This document shows positions 3,659 to 13,819 of a DNA stretch of 64,000 bases, in pieces. The notes under the pieces are model-generated. The model made no database searches and was not told the DNA's origin. It saw only the letters and a list, made by a program, of their open reading frames with translations. Position 1 is the first letter of the stretch. The number at the start of each line of letters is the position of its first letter. The DNA lies in assembly GCF_033100135.1 (NCBI RefSeq), contig NZ_CP136920.1:868001-932000 (forward strand), in the 5' to 3' direction. A program made the position numbers and the translations under genes. Source of the stretch: Rubellicoccus peritrichatus (GTDB lineage: Bacteria; Verrucomicrobiota; Verrucomicrobiia; Opitutales; Cerasicoccaceae).

Positions 3659-4153
3659 TCAAATCGCAATAAGCAAGTCATCACTTGCAGCGGATGCCTG
3701 TGTCGCAGCTTCGAGTTCGGCTGTCATTTGTGCAGGCTCGACCCTTTCGCTGGCATCGAGGAGTGAATCATGCTCCGCCAAAAATCGCTTAGCTTCGGTC
3801 AAGGGCTGCTTTAGCATTTCTGCCAGATCACGCAAAGCTGCTAATTCTGTTTTGAGATTTTCCACTTCACTGCGGACATCACTGAGGACTGATTGAACCG
3901 ATTCGGCTAGCTCCTGCGAAATCTCGACCTCTACTCGAACCACGTCGTGCTTGAATGGAATCCACTCAGCATCTTCTTCACCTGCTTTCGCTTCGTGCAA
4001 AACTGAAATATCTTTATTGCGATGCTGTTCTTTCAGCTTACTGATTCGTGAAAGTGACTGCAGATCGTCCTGCACCTCAGTGCCAATTGCGACCCACCAG
4101 GAATCGCTAACGCTGTGATCATTCATCCAGCTTTTCAGTTCGCTTAAAGTCAT
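3659..4153 (-). CDS. Hypothetical protein with coiled coil
   Basis: This 164-residue protein is not recognised. The N-terminal half (residues 1-75) looks globular, with a SWWVAIGTEVQDDL segment. Residues about 75-150 form a heptad-like, Glu/Leu/Ala-rich helix typical of a coiled coil. There is no signal peptide, no membrane segment and no cysteine cluster. It stands alone between two terminator hairpins, so it is probably transcribed as a single gene. Its codon use and length suggest a real gene, and no larger frame competes with it. Function is unknown. Confidence 0.7.
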   Translation of the reverse strand: MTLSELKSWMNDHSVSDSWWVAIGTEVQDDLQSLSRISKLKEQHRNKDISVLHEAKAGEEDAEWIPFKHDVVRVEVEISQELAESVQSVLSDVRSEVENLKTELAALRDLAEMLKQPLTEAKRFLAEHDSLLDASERVEPAQMTAELEAATQASAASDDLLIAI

Positions 4154-4341: not shown

Positions 4342-6495
4342 CTACAGCTCTGCTTCATAGGCCTCGGTCATATCCCGGCCTGAGTCAAAACGTCCACTCA
4401 AGGTGGAACGTCCACCAGAATGTGCATCACCAAGCGCATTGAGGTTTGCATAGGCATCAAAAAGAATTGGTCCGTTACTGGAGACACCTGCGATCTTGTT
4501 AGGGACGAGCACATCGATTGAGTAGTCGAGTGATCTCCTCTCCAATTCGATCTCAATGCCATCCACTGGATTCTTATGAGGATCAACAACCTGGACTCCA
4601 TCCTGCTTGTCCGGCACCACAAACAAATGAGTTATTCCCGGACGGCCCTCTTCGCAAAAGAAGAGCTCGACGGATGATCCCTGCCAAGGGGTTTCCAGCT
4701 TGGGCTTAATATCAGAATCCCCGACCGTCATCTTAATCCGGAGATTCTCACCTTCGCGTGACACAGAACCGGAAGCCGATGGGAAACCGGAAAGGTCCAA
4801 AGCAAAATTCGCACTACCGTCATCCGCCTTATTCATTCTGCGCCGCAAATTAATAGTAGAGCCAATCGTAACAACTCGTGGATCTGTTGAGGTAAGCGTG
4901 ATGTCAACCGATTCCTTACTGGCTTTCTTCACTGTCGCCTTAATGATTTCAGTGATTTTCGCTCCAGCAGGAACAGACAGTTTCAGCCTATCGGATGCCA
5001 ACGCTATGGTATCACCTTCACTACTAACAACCAGACTGCAATCCACATCGTCCGTACTCGGATTTTCAACAGATACCTCAAGGTCAAACTCCGTGCCAGC
5101 CTGGTCCAGGTGTACTCCGCGAGCAGCTGACCGCGCAATCAGACGATCACCCAGACCAGCATAAGTCCTACCTGTATTCTTTATGACAGGAGCAAACTCT
5201 CCAAGGTAGCCATCACACTGATGGGCATCGATCAGCTCGTCACACATCGCCCAGATATTATCCAGGGTCAGGGTTGAGGAAGCATGTGGGTCCATCATTA
5301 CGGCATGATAAATATGCTCACGCTTACCTGTGAGTGCTGCTGTCACTGTCAAACGTTGAACATTGACGTTCGTCATGCAAATCGCGGCGAGTTGATCCGG
5401 CAGTTTACCGATGTAGACAGGATTCAAACCACTGGCATCGACCTGACATGGCACTTCGACGCAGCACCCCTCAGTCAAATTCGTAATCAATCCTGTGTTT
5501 GGAACATTACCATAGACCGTGCGCAAGGTATTCGTTTCACGGGAATGAATAATGTAAGAACCATATTCATGAGACTGGGCTTTAACCTCAATCTCTCCAT
5601 CTTCACCTAACAGCTTTGCTTCAGTGTCCTCCCAGGTCGCAATCACGCCTTCACAACGACGCAGGTATTCATCGATCGGAATATTGAATTTATCAATGAC
5701 CTCCTTTCCGTGATGGATAAAGTAAGGGAGATATTCGCTTTGGTGCTCGCTCGATTCGGTTACAAAGTATCCTGTACGACGCATCATCTCATAACGCACC
5801 AGTTCAAAAGAACGATCCGGATCCTCAAGCGCACGATAGAGCAATGGATAAGCATCCTGACCACGGTACTGAAACTTGAGGAAGAATGCCATGTGATTGA
5901 TGCCCGCAACAAGGTAGCTGACATCGTTATAAGGGATTCCAACGTGCCCAGCAAGCATACGCGCCGTCCCAAAAACCGAATGACACAGGCCAACGTGAGG
6001 AATCCCAACCGCCTCGTCTACCGCCCAACAGTTCATTGCCATCGGATTCGTATAATTGAGGAAAAGACAATCAGGATGGGCATGGTCAGCAATATCCTGA
6101 GCAATGCCATTAATCACGGGAATGGTTCTCAAGGCACGGAAAACGCCACCCACCCCAAGCGTGTCTGCGATGGTCTGCTGCAGACCGTACTTCTTTGGTA
6201 TCTCAAAATCGCGAACAGTGGATGGCTTGTAGCCACCAACCTGAACGGTACAGATGACATATTTCGCGCCTTTGATCGCCTTTTTCTGCTCAAGTGTCGA
6301 TGTCACTTTGGCCTTCACTCCGAGTTTGGCGATGATGCGCTTCATCATGATATCGGCCACCTTCAGGCGAGCCGGATCAATGTCCATCAGGCAGATTTCA
6401 CTGTCTGAAAGCTCGGCGAACTGAAGAATGTCACTGATCAGTGTTTTAGCAAAAACAACGGAGCCAGCGCCTATAAGTGTGATTTTACGAGACAT
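4342..6495 (-). CDS. GH4 alpha-galactosidase/glucosidase with C-terminal Ig- and CBM9-like extension
   Basis: Residues about 1-450 are a family GH4 glycosidase, an NAD+- and metal-dependent hydrolase. They show the Rossmann start LIGAGSVVFAKTLISDIL, the DTLGVGGVFRALRTIPV and NYTNPMAMN motifs, the metal-binding cysteine/histidine GLCHSVFGTA and the GINHMAFF motif; these resemble the MelA/alpha-galactosidase branch. GH4 enzymes normally end near residue 450. Here about 260 further residues follow. Residues about 455-545 have an Ig/filamin-like pattern (FDLEVSVENPSTDDVDCSL). Residues about 550-717 resemble CBM9/DOMON-type sandwich domains (TPWQGSSVELFF, SLDYSIDVLVP). There is no signal peptide, so the enzyme should be cytosolic. 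It is divergent from an AraC regulator that probably controls it. The GH4 call is firm; the names of the extension domains are by pattern only. Confidence 0.93.
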   Translation of the reverse strand: MSRKITLIGAGSVVFAKTLISDILQFAELSDSEICLMDIDPARLKVADIMMKRIIAKLGVKAKVTSTLEQKKAIKGAKYVICTVQVGGYKPSTVRDFEIPKKYGLQQTIADTLGVGGVFRALRTIPVINGIAQDIADHAHPDCLFLNYTNPMAMNCWAVDEAVGIPHVGLCHSVFGTARMLAGHVGIPYNDVSYLVAGINHMAFFLKFQYRGQDAYPLLYRALEDPDRSFELVRYEMMRRTGYFVTESSEHQSEYLPYFIHHGKEVIDKFNIPIDEYLRRCEGVIATWEDTEAKLLGEDGEIEVKAQSHEYGSYIIHSRETNTLRTVYGNVPNTGLITNLTEGCCVEVPCQVDASGLNPVYIGKLPDQLAAICMTNVNVQRLTVTAALTGKREHIYHAVMMDPHASSTLTLDNIWAMCDELIDAHQCDGYLGEFAPVIKNTGRTYAGLGDRLIARSAARGVHLDQAGTEFDLEVSVENPSTDDVDCSLVVSSEGDTIALASDRLKLSVPAGAKITEIIKATVKKASKESVDITLTSTDPRVVTIGSTINLRRRMNKADDGSANFALDLSGFPSASGSVSREGENLRIKMTVGDSDIKPKLETPWQGSSVELFFCEEGRPGITHLFVVPDKQDGVQVVDPHKNPVDGIEIELERRSLDYSIDVLVPNKIAGVSSNGPILFDAYANLNALGDAHSGGRSTLSGRFDSGRDMTEAYEAEL

Positions 6496-6508
6496 AGTAA
6501 ATCTTTCT

Positions 6509-7405
6509 TTGTGGTTTAACGAAAGCTGTGATTTTCACAGAATAGCTCATTCGGAGCAACAGGTTAAGATTGACAAATTTCCGGCAATTTGTGATCTCAA
6601 TGAGATTAGCGAGCTTTACAAAATTATTTGGGCAGACGCTGAAGTCAGGCAATCAATCCGCTACTACTATGATAATAGTGACCGGGATGATGAGCGTGAA
6701 ATCTGCGTTGTGCAACGAACACGACGGGGAGCCGGATTCCTTGAACGTGACGGAATACGCAAGCTGGCAAAGCGTGGGGAAGCGATGCTCTTTATCCATG
6801 GTGAGGATTCACGTTATGGCTATGCTGCAGAGAGTGATGGGGACTACGCCTTCGATTTCATCTCTTTTCTTGGTCCCAATGCGACTCAACTCCTGAATCT
6901 CTCACGCGACCGGGCAGGCACCGTTCAGCACATGCCAGCTGGCTGCGAATCCTTGCGCCTGATGGAAGAAATCCTGCGACGCTTTGGCGGAAGGGAATTT
7001 CGTGATGCCATGCACGAATCCAGCATGATTTATGAATTCCTCATGGCATTGCTCCGTGAAGCTACAGCATTCCCGGCAGAAAGAGACCCTCTACGCTTTG
7101 CCAACGAATACTTATGCAGCCGCTTCCATTTCCCTATCACAGTGGATGATATTGCACATGCCTCAGGTCTGAGCCGGGAGCATCTTAGCCGAACCTTTAA
7201 GGAACGATATGGAATCTCACCCGGCAAAAGACTGCGCCAACTTCGCCTGGAAACAGCAAAACAGTTGCTTGAGCGCACTCATGCCCCGATTGATGCCATC
7301 GCAAGTCGCTGCGGGTACAATGACCCGGATGCATTCTCTCGCTCATTTCGAAATTACTTTGGGAGAAATCCAGCATCCATGCGAAAATCCCCGTCGGGGG
7401 ATTGA
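6509..7405 (+). CDS. AraC-family transcriptional regulator
   Basis: The C-terminal ~100 residues form a double helix-turn-helix AraC domain. The first HTH contains ITVDDIAHASGLSREHLSR and the second contains PIDAIASRCGYNDPDAFSR, followed by the usual FRNYFGRNPASMR end. The N-terminal ~190 residues are a divergent sensor half with no family I can name. The frame is open back to ATG 6428, but that would overlap the 5' end of the divergent GH4 gene by 68 bp and merely encode its antisense. TTG 6509 is used here. A start nearer 6569 (ATT after a GGAG) is possible. By position it is a likely regulator of the GH4 gene, responding to a sugar. Confidence 0.85.
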   Translation: MWFNESCDFHRIAHSEQQVKIDKFPAICDLNEISELYKIIWADAEVRQSIRYYYDNSDRDDEREICVVQRTRRGAGFLERDGIRKLAKRGEAMLFIHGEDSRYGYAAESDGDYAFDFISFLGPNATQLLNLSRDRAGTVQHMPAGCESLRLMEEILRRFGGREFRDAMHESSMIYEFLMALLREATAFPAERDPLRFANEYLCSRFHFPITVDDIAHASGLSREHLSRTFKERYGISPGKRLRQLRLETAKQLLERTHAPIDAIASRCGYNDPDAFSRSFRNYFGRNPASMRKSPSGD

Positions 7406-7506
7406 TCCGATTAACAAGCCTATAGGCGGCATCTGGAGCGAAAAAGAAGGACGGCATAACAATCAAAGTAAAAAAGAGGTTTACAAACCCCCACACCAAG
7501 ACATTG

Positions 7507-8391
7507 ATGTCCTTGTTAAGTATGGAAGCTCCCAGCGAGAAAATTCTCTCTCCGGAAGACGAGGAAATGATGAGGGACTCCCTCAAACGCTGTTCACCGG
7601 AAACGGTGGAGAGTGCTCTCGCCTACCGTAAAACCGGTGACGTTGACCGCGTGGCGGTTATTATCATTGGTATCATTGAACGGTTCCTTGAACCGGACAT
7701 GCGAGCTCGACTGCGCAAAGGTGGCGACAATCAGCGCATCTTTGAGGACTTGGGGATTGATTCCCTGACCCTTGTTGAGATTGTGATGTTGGTTGAAGAG
7801 ACATTGGATATGTCTATCGACAACAATGAGTTACGTGATTTACGGACTATCGGAGATGTCAAAACCTTCATCGACTGCAAAGTTCGCGGGCTTCCAATGC
7901 CGGAAAAAGCACGCCATGTAGGGGCAGAAGTTATCGACCAGGCATTGCCCCACGGCCAACCCTTTCTCTTTGTGCAGGAGGCTTCAATTCGTAAATCCGA
8001 AGCGCGAGGCAGCTACAAGATCAACGGTGACGAGTTCTTCCTGGAAGGCCACTTCAAGGGAAATCCCGTGTTTCCTGCATCGATCATGCTCGAGGCTCTC
8101 GGCCAGCTTGCTGTTCTTTACCTAACGCAGAATGGCCCTGGAGATTTGCCAGGCAAAGTCGATAAAGACAAAGTTTTCTTCACATCCTGCGACGGTGTTC
8201 GCTGTACTCGGGTCTGCAAGCCGGGTGATGTTCTAACGCTAACCGTCAAACCAAAGCGCATCAAACATCCCGTAGGCACATTTGAGGGGCATATCTCAGT
8301 TGGAGCGGAAAAGGTTGCCTTTGCCGAAGAAATTTCATTGATGTTTGACTTTTGCAGTGGGGAATCAAGTCCATCTACAGTTTCCGAATAA
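7507..8391 (+). CDS. Acyl carrier protein fused to FabZ/FabA-like 3-hydroxyacyl-ACP dehydratase
   Basis: This is a two-domain fatty-acyl protein. Residues about 45-125 are an acyl carrier domain with the phosphopantetheine serine in DLGIDSLTLVEIVMLVEE (about residue 86). Residues about 135-285 are a hot-dog dehydratase with the active-site histidine in LPHGQPFLFVQ and the EGHFKGNPVFPASIMLEALGQ helix carrying the catalytic acid. Stand-alone ACP is about 80 residues and FabZ about 150, so this is a true fusion. It is followed 49 nt later by a ketoacyl synthase gene, suggesting a dedicated acyl-chain line separate from housekeeping FAS. The start is uncertain (TTG 7504, ATG 7507 or ATG 7522); none has a clear ribosome site. 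No reductase is encoded nearby. Confidence 0.9.
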   Translation: MSLLSMEAPSEKILSPEDEEMMRDSLKRCSPETVESALAYRKTGDVDRVAVIIIGIIERFLEPDMRARLRKGGDNQRIFEDLGIDSLTLVEIVMLVEETLDMSIDNNELRDLRTIGDVKTFIDCKVRGLPMPEKARHVGAEVIDQALPHGQPFLFVQEASIRKSEARGSYKINGDEFFLEGHFKGNPVFPASIMLEALGQLAVLYLTQNGPGDLPGKVDKDKVFFTSCDGVRCTRVCKPGDVLTLTVKPKRIKHPVGTFEGHISVGAEKVAFAEEISLMFDFCSGESSPSTVSE

Positions 8392-8440
8392 ATCGGATTA
8401 ACTGGAATATTTCCTGCAGCAGAGGATTCAAAGTACACAT

Positions 8441-9694
8441 ATGCCTGAGGTTGTCATCACAGGTCTGGGATTTGTTACAAGCATCGGAAACGACCAAAAA
8501 GTCGTTTTGGACAGCTTAATGAACCTCAGACACGGAATTGATTATTTCCCCGATTTCGGGGAAGAAACTAGCCCTGTCAAAGTAGCAGGAACGATCAAGG
8601 ATTTCTCCGCCAAGGGGTGTGATCCGGAAGACTGGACTTTCCCTGACCGATACTCGATCAAACGGGACATTCTACGTAGTTTACCGCCTCATGGGCTTTA
8701 TGCCTATTGCGCCACCACCCAAGCCATAGAAGACGCCGGCTTGACAGCTGATGAGGTCTCAGGGCTCGATACAGGGCTTTTCACTGCCTCTGCTGGCTCA
8801 GCTAAGATGCTTCACAATCACGTGGAGCGTATGAATCGCTCTGGTGTGATGCGTTGCTCACCACTAGGAATCGTGAATTCGGTGGTGGGAACATTGACTT
8901 TCAATCTGGCTGCCGCTTTCAGCATCAAAGGTGCTTCAGCAGGCTTTGTATCCGCATGTGCTTCATCCGGACATGCTCTAGGCTACGCATGGGATGAAAT
9001 CATGCTTGGCCGCCAGAAACGGATGATCGTTGTGGGCGGTGAAGATGGTAACCGGGAAAGCATTCTGCCATTTGCCGGAATGCGTGCGCTAAGCCAATCA
9101 AGCGATCCTGAGTCTGCCTCTAGACCTTTCGACAAGGATCGCGATGGCTTCGTTGGCACTGGGGGCTCAGTGGTCATGATTCTTGAGGATGCCGAAGTTG
9201 CCAAGGCACGTGGCGCAAAAGTCTACGCCCAAATGGCTGGTTGGGGCCAAGCTTCCGACGGCTATAATGTTGCCATCTCACACCCTGATGGTGATGGCTT
9301 AGCCAATGCTATGCGTAGAGCGGCCGCTCATGCCAAAATTTCACTTCAGGAAATTGATTATATCAATGCCCATGCTCCATCCACTCCGATTGGGGACCTT
9401 TCCGAGATTAGGGCATTGAAGCAAACTTTCGGCGATCGCAGCCCGGCAATCAGCAGCACCAAAGCCCTGACAGGCCATGGCCTTTCCCTTGCCAGCATCA
9501 TGGAAGCAGCTTTCACCGTGCTTGGCGTTAACGACCGCTTCATGCCAGGATCAGCCCACATCATGTCCCTCGATCCTGAAGCTAAGGATTTGCATATCAT
9601 TAAGGAGACAGAAGACGAAGGGCCAAAGTTTGCCATGTCCAACAGCAGTGGTTTCGGCGGCGCAAATGTTTCTCTAATCTTTAAGCGAAACTGA
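8441..9694 (+). CDS. Beta-ketoacyl-ACP synthase (KAS I/II, FabF-like)
   Basis: This enzyme would condense acyl-ACP or acyl-enzyme with malonyl-ACP, with loss of CO2. The 417-residue length is that of FabF. The catalytic triad is visible: Cys173 in VSACASSGHALG, His311 in INAHAPSTPIGD and His346 in STKALTGHGLSLAS. The segment after the first His is HAPSTP where canonical FabF has HGTSTP, a small divergence. The C-terminal SNSSGFGGANVSLIF is also typical. Together with the upstream ACP-dehydratase fusion it looks like part of a specialised acyl pathway rather than the core fatty-acid cluster, since no fabD, fabG or fabH is nearby. Confidence 0.92.
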   Translation: MPEVVITGLGFVTSIGNDQKVVLDSLMNLRHGIDYFPDFGEETSPVKVAGTIKDFSAKGCDPEDWTFPDRYSIKRDILRSLPPHGLYAYCATTQAIEDAGLTADEVSGLDTGLFTASAGSAKMLHNHVERMNRSGVMRCSPLGIVNSVVGTLTFNLAAAFSIKGASAGFVSACASSGHALGYAWDEIMLGRQKRMIVVGGEDGNRESILPFAGMRALSQSSDPESASRPFDKDRDGFVGTGGSVVMILEDAEVAKARGAKVYAQMAGWGQASDGYNVAISHPDGDGLANAMRRAAAHAKISLQEIDYINAHAPSTPIGDLSEIRALKQTFGDRSPAISSTKALTGHGLSLASIMEAAFTVLGVNDRFMPGSAHIMSLDPEAKDLHIIKETEDEGPKFAMSNSSGFGGANVSLIFKRN

Positions 9695-9728
9695 CCCATT
9701 ACGGGGAGCTACCCCCAACCTGACGACC

Positions 9729-11036
9729 GTGAAAATCGCTTACCTCTTCACAACCTTTCCGGTCCAATCGGAAACATTTCTGCAGCGCGAACTGCGGTTA
9801 ATGGCTAAACAGGGCGTGCAGATTCAAATCCATTCACTCTGGAAAGGTAGTCAGGAATGGGAAGGCCAGAAGGTGGAGCATTTCCGGCATCGACACCTCT
9901 TCAAGCTGCTGTGGGAACTGCCCTACTGGAGTTTTCGCAAACCCAATGTCCTCCGCAATGTTCTCCAGCGCCTTTATCAGCACGAAGTTCATTCTCTACA
10001 AAATTTGGGTGAGCTGCTGATGGGCCTCGGTTTCGCTATCGTCAAAGCAAGGGATTTTAGTAAGGCACCACCTGACCTCCTACATGGCGTATGGGCAACC
10101 ATGCCGGCAACTGCAGCATGGCTCTTGAATCAGCTAACAGGGCTTCCCTACTCAATGGGTGCGCACGCCTACGATGTATTCAGCCATGGTGGTGACTGCT
10201 TACTTCCTGCAAAGCTAACCAGTGCCCGACTGGTTCATACCACGACAGCTGCAACACGCAGACGACTTCTTCAGCTTGGTGCAGATTCAGAACGGATTCA
10301 ACTGGTCCGACGCGGACTTGATCATTTTCCAGAGTTTATACCCGCCCGAAAGAACCCATCAACAATACGCTTCATTACTGTTGGCCGGATGGTTCCCAAG
10401 AAAGGATTTAGTGATCAACTTCAGTTATACAAGAAACTGAAGGAAGCCGGTATTTCATTTGAAGCGCGAATCATTGGCGATGGTGGACTCAAACAGAGGT
10501 TAATTGACCAGAGAGACCGCCTGGGACTGCAAAGTGAAGTCTCCTTCGTCGGCTGGCTTGATTACGGCTCAGTGATCCGAGAGTATGCCTGGGCTGATGC
10601 ATTTGTTTTTACTGGAAAAATCGCCTCAAATGGTGATCGTGACGGCCTGCCAAACGTCATTCCCGAGGCTATGGCTTGCGGACTGGTCGTGTTGACCTCT
10701 CCTGTTTCAGGGACCGTTGAGGCAATCGAAGACGGAGAAACCGGGTTCGTTTGCCCAATGAATCAGTTCGAAAAATGGCTGGCTGCCGTTCGAGCCATTC
10801 AAGCTGAACTTCATCTTGTGGCCCACATTCAGGACAAAGCCCGTAAGTGGGTGGAAGAAAACTTCGACAATCGAAAAAACGCTGCCGCTTTAGCCAATGC
10901 ACTCCGTGATGCAGTCGGCTTCTGCGACTTCCCTGGCCCGCAGCCCCCAAGGACAAAAAGCGACGCATCCGTTTTGCAAATGCCTGCAAGCCAAGAAGCA
11001 GTTCAAGACTATAACCAGCAATCCAGAGCATCGTGA
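9729..11036 (+). CDS. GT4-family glycosyltransferase (WcaL-like)
   Basis: This is a retaining GT-B glycosyltransferase. The N-terminal MKIAYLFTTFPVQSETFLQRE pattern is that of the colanic-acid WcaL/AmsK-like branch. The donor-binding half begins near RFITVGRMVPKKGF and carries a GLPNVIPEAMACG motif with the two conserved acids (the E-x7-E equivalent). It has no membrane segments, so it should act at the cytoplasmic face on a lipid-linked or lipid substrate. The start is GTG 9729, with a distant GGGGAG around 9702. It shares a 4-nt GTGA overlap with the following methylase gene, so the two are translationally coupled. Its acceptor is unknown; the neighbours point to a surface glycolipid. Confidence 0.88.
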   Translation: MKIAYLFTTFPVQSETFLQRELRLMAKQGVQIQIHSLWKGSQEWEGQKVEHFRHRHLFKLLWELPYWSFRKPNVLRNVLQRLYQHEVHSLQNLGELLMGLGFAIVKARDFSKAPPDLLHGVWATMPATAAWLLNQLTGLPYSMGAHAYDVFSHGGDCLLPAKLTSARLVHTTTAATRRRLLQLGADSERIQLVRRGLDHFPEFIPARKNPSTIRFITVGRMVPKKGFSDQLQLYKKLKEAGISFEARIIGDGGLKQRLIDQRDRLGLQSEVSFVGWLDYGSVIREYAWADAFVFTGKIASNGDRDGLPNVIPEAMACGLVVLTSPVSGTVEAIEDGETGFVCPMNQFEKWLAAVRAIQAELHLVAHIQDKARKWVEENFDNRKNAAALANALRDAVGFCDFPGPQPPRTKSDASVLQMPASQEAVQDYNQQSRAS

Positions 11037-11599
11037 GTAAAGGACATCGCAATCAAGGCGGACGTCAAAACCGTCATTTCGCGCAAAAAATTGAAATCGA
11101 GCCACTCTCTGAGGCAGAAATTCTCGAACGCCTTGAGCAAAAGGAAAATCCATTTGTTCTGATCCTTGATGGAGTTCAGGACCCGCACAACCTGGGAGCC
11201 TGTCTACGCTCTGCTGATGCTGCTGGTGTGGATTTTGTCTTTGCCCCGAGAAAGCATACCGTCGGAGTTACTGAAACGGTTCGACGAATTGCCTGCGGTG
11301 GAGCTGATCGCGTCCCCTACACCCAAGTAGGAAATCTAGGGATGCTTCTCGAGAAACTAAAAAAGATGGGGATCTGGCTGGTGGGAACCGGAGATGAGGA
11401 ATCCAAGCTCATCTATGAAGTCGATCTGCGTGGACCACTCGGCATTGTCATGGGCTCTGAAGCATCGGGACTGCGTCAAAAGAATGCTGAGAAATGTGAT
11501 CATTTGGTAAAGATACCGATGCTCGGCTCAACGGATTGCCTGAATCTCTCAGTTGCAACCGGGGTGTGCCTTTTTGAGGCAGTTCGCCAAAGGATTTAA
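11033..11599 (+). CDS. SpoU/TrmH-family RNA 2'-O-methyltransferase, RlmB-like, short form
   Basis: This is a SPOUT-fold methyltransferase. Motif 1 is DPHNLGACLRSADAAG (with the conserved Asn and Arg), motif 2 is GIVMGSEASGLR and motif 3 is STDCLNLSVATGVCLFEA, which together form the trefoil-knot AdoMet site. By analogy with RlmB it would methylate a ribose in rRNA (Gm2251 in E. coli 23S), but tRNA is also possible. At 188 residues it is shorter than E. coli RlmB (243); the N-terminal L30e-like substrate-binding domain is reduced to about 40 basic residues. The GTG start overlaps the upstream glycosyltransferase stop by 4 nt. Its 3' end overlaps the convergent GT9 gene by 4 nt. Confidence 0.88.
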   Translation: MSKGHRNQGGRQNRHFAQKIEIEPLSEAEILERLEQKENPFVLILDGVQDPHNLGACLRSADAAGVDFVFAPRKHTVGVTETVRRIACGGADRVPYTQVGNLGMLLEKLKKMGIWLVGTGDEESKLIYEVDLRGPLGIVMGSEASGLRQKNAEKCDHLVKIPMLGSTDCLNLSVATGVCLFEAVRQRI

Positions 11600-12681
11600 A
11601 CGCCAATCTGCTGCTTAATGGATTGGTTAAGCATCTGAGTCATCATGGCATAAACTTCATCACGGTCGTATTTTCGTACGATACGTCGAGCAACACTCCG
11701 GGGAGGCTCAAAAGGCCAGGCAAATACAGGCTTATAGTATATCTTGGCATTCTCACCTATTGGTCGCCAACGCAGTGGGCTCATTAAAGGAGTAGAATTG
11801 ATAAAAAAAGTAAGGGTTGGGCATCCAACTGCAGCCGCCAAATGTGCTGGACCACTATCACGTGAGAGCATCAATTGTCCCGATTGACAAATACCGGATA
11901 ACAGCTCGATATCCGTTTTTCCAGCGACGTTTAAAATCCTCTGCTTGTATGCGGCTAGCTGATCAAGAAAAGCAATCAGGCCAGGGTCTTCTGCTTCTGC
12001 TCCAACAATGACCAAATTGTAATCAAACTGATTCAATAATGATTTAGCCAGATGAGCAAAGAATTCCGGTGGGACGCGAGGCTTGGATCCATGTGATGCC
12101 AAGTGGAAAAGGACATAAGGGTGATCTCCACAGATACTGGCGGCTTCAGTAACTGATTTATCTGAGACTTCAACAGCGGTGGTCAAGTTATCCGATGCGC
12201 TAACACCGTATGGCTCCAATAAATCGAAGTTGAAAAGTGCCTCATGTTTTTCTCCGGCACGCTTATAGTCATAAGAGATCCAGTCGGTGAGATGCTCACC
12301 TTCTCTACGTGAAAAACCTAATCGCCTTGGGATCTCCGCTTCAGCGATCTGGGCATCCCAAGCAGGATCGGGATTGAGCTGAATCGAGACATCAAATCGG
12401 CTCGCTCTCAACCGATCGAGCAGTGACTTTTTTTGCCCAGGAATCCCAATAACTTCATCGACGAAATGAGATCCCTGAAAAAGGGCCGTTAAAGGTTCAT
12501 TGACTGCCAAAGCGATATAAGTATCCGGCATTTGCCGCCTAAGCTCTGGCAGGCAAGTACTGGAAATAACCACATCACCAAGACGATCGGGACGGCTGAT
12601 TAAGAGTCTCTGGGGTTTCGGAAGCTCAGATACGCCGTGCTGCGTATGCCATTGCTTCTTCGATTTTTTCAAAATCTTCAT
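11596..12681 (-). CDS. GT9-family glycosyltransferase (ADP-heptose:LPS heptosyltransferase type)
   Basis: This 361-residue GT-B enzyme is of the WaaC/WaaF/WaaQ family. The N-terminal SRPDRLGDVVISSTCLPEL matches the RxDRLGD donor motif. FHLASHGSKPRVPPE and the MLSRDSGPAHLAAAVGCP motif near the C-terminus are typical for GT9. It would add heptose or a related sugar to the LPS inner core at the cytoplasmic membrane. The ATG at 12681 lies 56 nt inside the upstream oxoamine-synthase gene and has AAGG seven bases ahead of it, so the pair appears translationally coupled. It is the last gene of the Kdo/LPS operon. The sugar added cannot be read from sequence. Confidence 0.9.
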   Translation of the reverse strand: MKILKKSKKQWHTQHGVSELPKPQRLLISRPDRLGDVVISSTCLPELRRQMPDTYIALAVNEPLTALFQGSHFVDEVIGIPGQKKSLLDRLRASRFDVSIQLNPDPAWDAQIAEAEIPRRLGFSRREGEHLTDWISYDYKRAGEKHEALFNFDLLEPYGVSASDNLTTAVEVSDKSVTEAASICGDHPYVLFHLASHGSKPRVPPEFFAHLAKSLLNQFDYNLVIVGAEAEDPGLIAFLDQLAAYKQRILNVAGKTDIELLSGICQSGQLMLSRDSGPAHLAAAVGCPTLTFFINSTPLMSPLRWRPIGENAKIYYKPVFAWPFEPPRSVARRIVRKYDRDEVYAMMTQMLNQSIKQQIGV

Positions 12682-13819
12682 CAGTATGCCTTGCTGAGAT
12701 CGATGTTCGTATCAGATCCTTGCCCGGGGGAACCGCAGGCGCAATAGACATAACTGTAAAAAGCCCACGCTCACGCAGATGCTGCCAAAAACGATAAACT
12801 CTTTCCTTAGATCCTAAAACAATGGGAATTGCGGGCGTTTCGCTACCCCATGTATCAAGGCCTAAGCTTTCAAGAATGGCCTTGTAACGGCGTGTGTTCG
12901 CCCAAAGACGCTCCAGATGCTCTGGTTCATTCTGGAGAATATCAAGTGATGCACTTGCGCAATAAGCCTGAACAGGGCTCAACGAAGCACTGAATATTGT
13001 CTGCTTTGAATGTGTACGAAGATACTCGATGACATCTTTTGAACCAGCCACAAAACCACCAGTGCTGCTCAACGCTTTTGAAAAGCTGCCAGTAAGTATG
13101 TCAATGTCATCCGTAGCACCGCAATGATCTGCGGAGCCACGACCGCTGCTACCTAAAACGCCAAACCCATGGGCGTCATCCAGAACGAAGAAACAATTCT
13201 GGTCTCGACACACCTCAACAATCTCCTGAATCGGAGAAATATGCCCCTCCATCGAGTAAACACCTTCGAAAACTACAAATTTCGGAGTTTCCGGTTTTTC
13301 GTAAGATAGCACCTCAGCCAGGTCACTTGGATTATTATGGGCAAAGCGCTCAACCTTCCCCTGAGTCAAACCGATACCCGACCAAAGTGAAGAATGCACG
13401 TTGCGATCAACCAGAATCAGGTCACCTTTCTGAGCAAATGCCTGAATGGAAGACATACAGGAAATATAGCCCGCGACACTAACATGGCAGGCCTCTTTCC
13501 CTAAAAATTCGGCCAATTTCTCCTCCAGTTCAATATGGTAACCCCGACTGCCGTTGGCCAGGCGTGCGCCAGTTGTACTACTCCCCCATTCGTCCAGAGC
13601 CCGCTTCCCGGCCTCTATTACCTTAGGATGAGTGCTGAGGCCGAGGTAATCATTGCTCGAAAGCATGACCATCTCCTTGCCATCTTCCCAGACACGCGAG
13701 CCTACCTGACGCTCAAACGTATGGTAGTAAACGTCATATTTCTTTCGAAGCTTAGTCATTTCGTCGTCTTGGCAACGACGAGTAACCGCATTGGTGGTTT
13801 TGGAAAAAACTGAAAACAT
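12626..13819 (-). CDS. Alpha-oxoamine synthase family PLP enzyme (KBL/BioF/serine palmitoyltransferase-like)
   Basis: This fold-type-I PLP enzyme would condense an amino acid with an acyl thioester. It shows MLSSNDYLGLSTHP, the GARLANGSRGYHIELE segment, DDAHGFGVLG and the PLP lysine in TGSFSKALSSTGGF (about Lys248). The 397-residue length is normal for the family. The family covers 2-amino-3-ketobutyrate CoA ligase, 8-amino-7-oxononanoate synthase, 5-aminolevulinate synthase and serine palmitoyltransferase (SPT). No threonine dehydrogenase or biotin gene is nearby. It sits among LPS glycosyltransferases and faces an ACP-dehydratase plus ketoacyl synthase, so an SPT-like lipid role is the favoured inference. 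ATG 13819 is used; ATG at residue 21 is an alternative. Confidence 0.85.
   Translation of the reverse strand: MFSVFSKTTNAVTRRCQDDEMTKLRKKYDVYYHTFERQVGSRVWEDGKEMVMLSSNDYLGLSTHPKVIEAGKRALDEWGSSTTGARLANGSRGYHIELEEKLAEFLGKEACHVSVAGYISCMSSIQAFAQKGDLILVDRNVHSSLWSGIGLTQGKVERFAHNNPSDLAEVLSYEKPETPKFVVFEGVYSMEGHISPIQEIVEVCRDQNCFFVLDDAHGFGVLGSSGRGSADHCGATDDIDILTGSFSKALSSTGGFVAGSKDVIEYLRTHSKQTIFSASLSPVQAYCASASLDILQNEPEHLERLWANTRRYKAILESLGLDTWGSETPAIPIVLGSKERVYRFWQHLRERGLFTVMSIAPAVPPGKDLIRTSISARHTDEDFEKIEEAMAYAARRI

Follow-up and report, generated by a model that had tools for sequence, protein, structure and literature searches.

A family GH4 glycosidase with a conserved Ig-like and CBM9-fold tail in Verrucomicrobiota

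CBM-type domains are usually parts of secreted enzymes, and the linkers of many CBM enzymes are variable. GH4 enzymes use a bound NAD+ as the oxidant and pass through a beta-elimination; the order of oxidation, elimination, addition of water and reduction is outlined in an excerpt of PMC10628242. In CBM9, an excerpt of PMC8280721 places the sugar of TmCBM9-2 between Trp71 and Trp175 and describes three calcium sites. The same excerpt indicates that CBM9 domains can carry very different sites, and that one CBM9 in which the expected binding residues are missing failed to bind any natural carbohydrate it was tested with. We analysed a window of 64,000 nucleotides (the whole stretch of DNA studied here) from Rubellicoccus peritrichatus, in which a GH4 enzyme carries a conserved Ig-like and CBM9-fold tail. 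This arrangement is real and unusual.

The gene (4342..6495, minus strand) encodes a GH4 enzyme of 717 aa with a C-terminal extension. The open reading frame and its translation agreed exactly with the first-pass annotation. The GH4 identity proposed there was upheld by two Pfam matches above cut-off. The N-terminal Rossmann (NAD) domain covers residues 4–184 (5944..6486, minus strand; PF02056, E 1.3e-54, 185 bits against 23.2), and the C-terminal domain covers residues 196–404 (5284..5910, minus strand; PF11975, E 4.6e-57, 193.9 bits against 24.1). The NCBIfam alpha-galactosidase model NF011657/PRK15076 matched residues 2–426 with 607 bits, its cut-off being 486; by this score the GH4 part is probably an alpha-galactosidase of the MelA type, an activity predicted from sequence. 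Alignments with solved GH4 enzymes showed that CHSV at residues 171–174 (5974..5985, minus strand) corresponds to CNVP in 1s6y, CHGH in 1obb and CHEV in 3fef. We take CHSV to be a signature of alpha-galactosidases. The NAD-binding GAGS motif (G9-A10-G11-S12), C171 and H201 were invariant in 13 of 13 members and line up with the solved enzymes; C171 and H201 are presumably the metal ligands. The N-terminus, MSRKITLIGAGSVVFAK, runs directly into the Rossmann motif, and no signal peptide was seen by eye, as had been noted before. The genome is one contig of 5.8 Mb. One further GH4 gene was found in it with the window protein as query, showing 37% identity over residues 3–426 in a frame that extends 82 residues beyond the match.

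The fetched loci include 75 GH4 frames that are not fused; 69 of these stop no more than 12 residues beyond query position 425 (median 8), so the extension of the window protein measures about 280 residues. The first-pass annotation was right about its presence and had put its size at 260. Pfam and NCBIfam gave no match to the tail of the window protein. Weak Pfam matches appeared in the tails of the 13 members, namely to the Ig-like ASH family in four (best E 0.0097) and to CBM9 in one (E 0.31), and the CBM9_1 cut-off was reached by none of the 13. An AlphaFold2 model of residues 440–717 from 13 sequences (pLDDT 89.1, pTM 0.79) showed an Ig-like domain at about residues 451–551 (4843..5145, minus strand), followed by a CBM9 fold at residues 552–717 (4345..4842, minus strand). 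The model and the fold comparison reproduced the order of an Ig/filamin-like and then a CBM9-like domain that had been read from the letters, and a profile match bore out its CBM9-like part.

The CBM9 fold of the modelled residues 552–717 was established with VIA-align. Model residues 113–278 (552–717 of the window protein) were superposed on 1i82 with a Z of 15.7 and an rmsd of 2.8 Å over 153 aligned residues at 16% identity. The same part matched 7nwn (Z 15.3) and 7nwo (Z 14.7), and next 4jpq (Z 13.8), titled a putative carbohydrate-binding protein. About residues 446–551 matched Ig-like domains; the highest scores were those of 4ziu (Z 10.6) and 5jpn (Z 10.4; 97 residues, 2.1 Å). In hhalign, the profile of the C-terminal part matched a set of ten CBM9-like domains with a probability of 98.9 and an E of 2e-17 over 115 columns (about residues 571–684), and this set retrieves 1i82 at E 1.5e-21. 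The hhalign match is not fully independent, because seven of the ten domains had been retrieved with the tail profile and three with the Pfam CBM9 model; the fold match is independent. The tail profile searched against the sequences of solved structures reached E 0.79 and 1.3 at best. The top rank in Foldseek was taken by transglutaminases, with 1i82 at rank 17. The transglutaminases were rejected as a domain match, their rmsd being about 16–17 Å, and VIA-align settled on CBM9.

The conservation within the fused family was compared in 24 members. Averaged over positions, the most frequent residue had a share of 0.80 in the GH4 part, against 0.41 for the Ig-like and 0.45 for the CBM9-like domain. 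N478, G576, D593, S607, Y658, L688 and H692 were invariant in all 24. The conservation of the tail region centres on an ALGDAHSGG-like loop and a junction of fixed length. The loop (residues 687–695; 4411..4437, minus strand) is exact in 18 of the 24 members, differs at one position in four and has a shorter form in L027 and L116, both of which have a tryptophan further along at position 699; D690 is near-invariant. The junction (residues 427–454; 5134..5217, minus strand) has 28 residues in 23 members and 27 in one (L116), and its G429 and G442 are invariant.

The CBM9/DOMON-like motif of the first-pass annotation is present, its PW being residues 603–604 of PWQGSSVE (residues 603–610; 4666..4689, minus strand), and motif comparison puts W604 at the place of Trp71 of TmCBM9-2. 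This place is held by W in seven of the 24 members and by F or Y in two (any aromatic residue, 9/24); the remaining 15 have M, Q, S, R, H, D, T or K there. Judged from these sequences, the Trp71-type clamp residue is not a trait of the family, though W604 is present in the window protein. At the place of Trp175, visual inspection showed no conserved aromatic residue; this stretch aligns poorly and lies beyond the reach of the hhalign match.

A search for the architecture in other genomes, as suggested at the outset, found the tail in 22 of 273 genomes of the order. All 25 matches lay in stop-free, full-length GH4 frames of 721–776 aa, and the weakest (G251, E 4.8e-4) was confirmed as a full-length fusion. 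GH4 itself was found in 51 of 246 genomes of the order, with 108 matches, 24 of them in frames of 721–776 aa. A 708-aa GH4 frame in G231 was considered as a further fusion and rejected: its match ends at query residue 425, 55 residues from the frame end. In a pattern scan with two of six patterns placed in the tail, 80 loci were kept and viewed out of 256 relatives; the tail occurred in 12 of them, all with Verrucomicrobiota-type labels. Named carriers are Cerasicoccus frondis (two loci) and metagenome genomes labelled Puniceicoccaceae, Opitutales and Chthoniobacterales. A sequencing or assembly error, which had been raised as a possible source of the fusion, and a frameshift were rejected because the same single open frame recurs in many genomes.

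A quick maximum-likelihood tree was built from 100 GH4 rows, leaving out L118 (an incomplete stretch, present whole as L142) and the matches in G050 and G071. A single branch with an SH-aLRT of 92, short of the 95 that the program sets as its mark, separated all 25 fused rows (24 distinct, since the window protein was entered twice) from the 75 others. The tail was probably gained once, in a GH4 subfamily of Verrucomicrobiota, on branch support that is not strong. We also considered whether the tail had been copied from a different CBM9 in the genome, and rejected this; five PF06452 places were found and none is the GH4 gene, and the profile of the CBM9 part matched only the GH4 gene in its own genome up to E 10. 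The tail was not found on plasmids or, in a scan with one peptide pattern, on viral contigs.

In a sample of the phylum, the tail profile matched 31 of 387 genomes. The rows other than GH4 fusions were mostly partial tail matches in other, mainly long frames. Nine such proteins were scanned, and PF06452 was found in four at E ≤ 0.0084, three of these above the cut-off. Two of the nine, L119 (1411–3318) and L120 (1399–3396), which come from different genomes within the phylum, carry a C-terminal Ig and CBM9 tandem behind a GH29-like front. The tail profile matched both of their domains in order (positions 31–253 and 32–244, respectively), and no signal peptide was visible by eye in either.

A divergent AraC-type regulator gene lies beside the GH4 gene (6428..7405, plus strand; HTH_18, E 4.2e-23). 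These coordinates are those of the longest frame, and the start is probably further in. Such a divergent neighbour occurs in five of 13 loci, the window included. Near the fused gene of other loci are sulfatase genes (L036, L037 and L038), a MalK-like ABC ATPase gene (L030), an ABC permease gene (L034) and GH9 and GH94 genes (L028). No neighbour cluster was common to all 13 loci, and several contigs end near the gene. These surroundings suit the use of imported sugars, a setting to be expected because the enzyme is NAD-dependent and without an evident signal peptide. Between the start of the GH4 gene and the main part of the AraC-type gene is a short palindrome, CTGTGAAAATCACAG (6526–6540, minus strand), which could be an operator. 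A scan for promoters and terminators upstream of the GH4 gene gave little above chance. Downstream of the GH4 gene, a 164-aa frame (3659–4153) had only weak Pfam matches of coiled-coil type, and none of the other 12 loci contained a relative. On the other side, beside the regulator, the frames at 7504–13819 were read by eye as an acyl-carrier and dehydratase-like protein, a ketoacyl synthase, a glycosyltransferase, an RNA methyltransferase and, further along, an aminotransferase-like acyl synthase. The first four also adjoin the GH4 gene in L039, and these frames are possibly a lipid pathway.

We favour, at a probability of roughly 0.45, a cytosolic NAD-dependent GH4 alpha-galactosidase of the MelA type, forming a Verrucomicrobiota subfamily in which the once-gained tail is an integral accessory domain. 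The cytosolic location is proposed because the enzyme is NAD-dependent. The GH4 part would follow the oxidation, elimination, water addition and reduction of its family, with bound NAD+. The fixed, conserved junction would hold the tail in place as an integral domain, which would pack on the catalytic unit or on an oligomer partner. The packed tail may steady the assembly or shape the entry of imported oligosaccharides, and its CBM9 fold would largely have lost the usual sugar clamp. The integral domain is favoured because the junction is fixed and conserved and the usual clamp is lost. The first-pass annotation had suggested glycan binding or the organisation of a complex, and the junction leans to the structural or complex-forming option. 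The invariant D593, S607, Y658, L688 and H692 count for the favoured explanation, as do the GH4 and alpha-galactosidase matches, the fold of the tail, the frame lengths of its 25 matches in the order, the single branch of the fused rows and the AraC-type, sulfatase or ABC-transport neighbours in several loci. Against it count the SH-aLRT below 95, a tail conservation far below that of the GH4 part and the dependence of the alpha-galactosidase assignment on a model score. The full-length model (pLDDT 78.6, pTM 0.57) was too uncertain to place the tail or to reveal a contact with the GH4 part. Residues 435–449 of the junction were among its worst stretches, a result that a flexible link could also give and that counts against an integral domain.

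The main rival, nearly as likely, sees the tail as a genuine carbohydrate-binding module working in the cytosol, its site having changed. Such a module would capture oligosaccharides after import, perhaps sulfated or galactose-containing ones, and pass them on to the GH4 site. The CBM9 fold (Z 15.7), the PF06452 domains of larger enzymes among the tail relatives and the sulfatase genes in three loci (L036, L037, L038) agree with this, and a new site could be lined by H692, which is invariant, and D690, which nearly is. The variety of CBM9 sites described in the excerpt of PMC8280721 would allow it, but the same source includes the CBM9 that lacked the expected residues and bound no natural carbohydrate tested. 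Also against such a module weigh the Trp71 place, where Trp is kept in 7 of 24 members and any aromatic residue in 9 of 24, and the Trp175 place, where no conserved aromatic was seen by eye in that poorly aligned stretch; a small soluble intracellular substrate would have little need for targeting. A doubtful further reading is that a cytosolic family recruited the CBM9 fold and that its sugar-site end and the ALGDAHSGG loop form a gating or allosteric site on the GH4 centre. If so, the tandem of L119 and L120 would make this a recurring device of the cytosolic glycosidases of the phylum. Of low probability too is a sensor, in which a sugar or metal bound near the loop would turn GH4 activity on or off; the fixed junction would fit this, as would loop residues that stay invariant while the rest of the domain changes fast. 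A neutral passenger retained by descent is improbable. The tail does change much faster than the GH4 part and the clamp residue drifts, but every one of the 25 tail matches sits in a full-length frame, several tail residues never vary among the 24 members, and the fused branch of the 100-row tree holds no tail-less row. The tail search cannot detect members without a tail; the tree could, within its 100 rows.

No description of a GH4, Ig-like and CBM9 fusion, or of a GH4 subfamily with such a tail, was found in the literature searched; CAZy and most subscription journals lay outside this scope and may record the fusion. Judged by titles and abstract openings, the papers naming both GH4 and CBM9, among the matches listed, are seemingly genome and enzyme inventories. 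The words GH4, CBM9 and "intracellular" do not occur in the CANDy paper (PMC11238990). The fusion leaves a blind spot, as about 280 residues of the fused subfamily are unnamed in Pfam and NCBIfam. A maintained CBM9-fold tail on a cytosolic hydrolase offers a simple test case for such folds inside cells.

Compared with known systems, the window protein resembles the MelA-type GH4 alpha-galactosidases (NF011657/PRK15076) in its catalytic part, residues 2–426. Its non-fused GH4 relatives from Chloroflexota and other phyla reach about 59% identity among the matches listed; they mostly stop near residue 433, whereas the window protein continues for some 280 residues more. Residues 552–717 share their fold with the CBM9 of Thermotoga maritima xylanase 10A (1i82) and of Caldicellulosiruptor (7nwn, 7nwo), but the identity to solved CBM9 domains is 16 and 14%, and none of 13 members reaches the Pfam cut-off. 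Unlike these, the tail sits on an enzyme in which no evident signal peptide was seen by eye, and the clamp residue of the Thermotoga maritima CBM9 is not retained in the family. About residues 446–551 share an Ig-like fold with E. coli alpha-2-macroglobulin (4ziu) and complement C4 (5jpn); the fold is widespread, and the likeness implies no common function. The fixed, conserved junction differs from the variable linkers of many CBM enzymes. The GH29-like proteins L119 and L120 have the same order of Ig and CBM9 domains as the fused GH4 tail, behind an alpha-L-fucosidase-like front (PF01120, E 0.0069, below cut-off, and 2.3e-08), but, unlike the fused GH4 enzymes, they are without the ALGDAHSGG loop.
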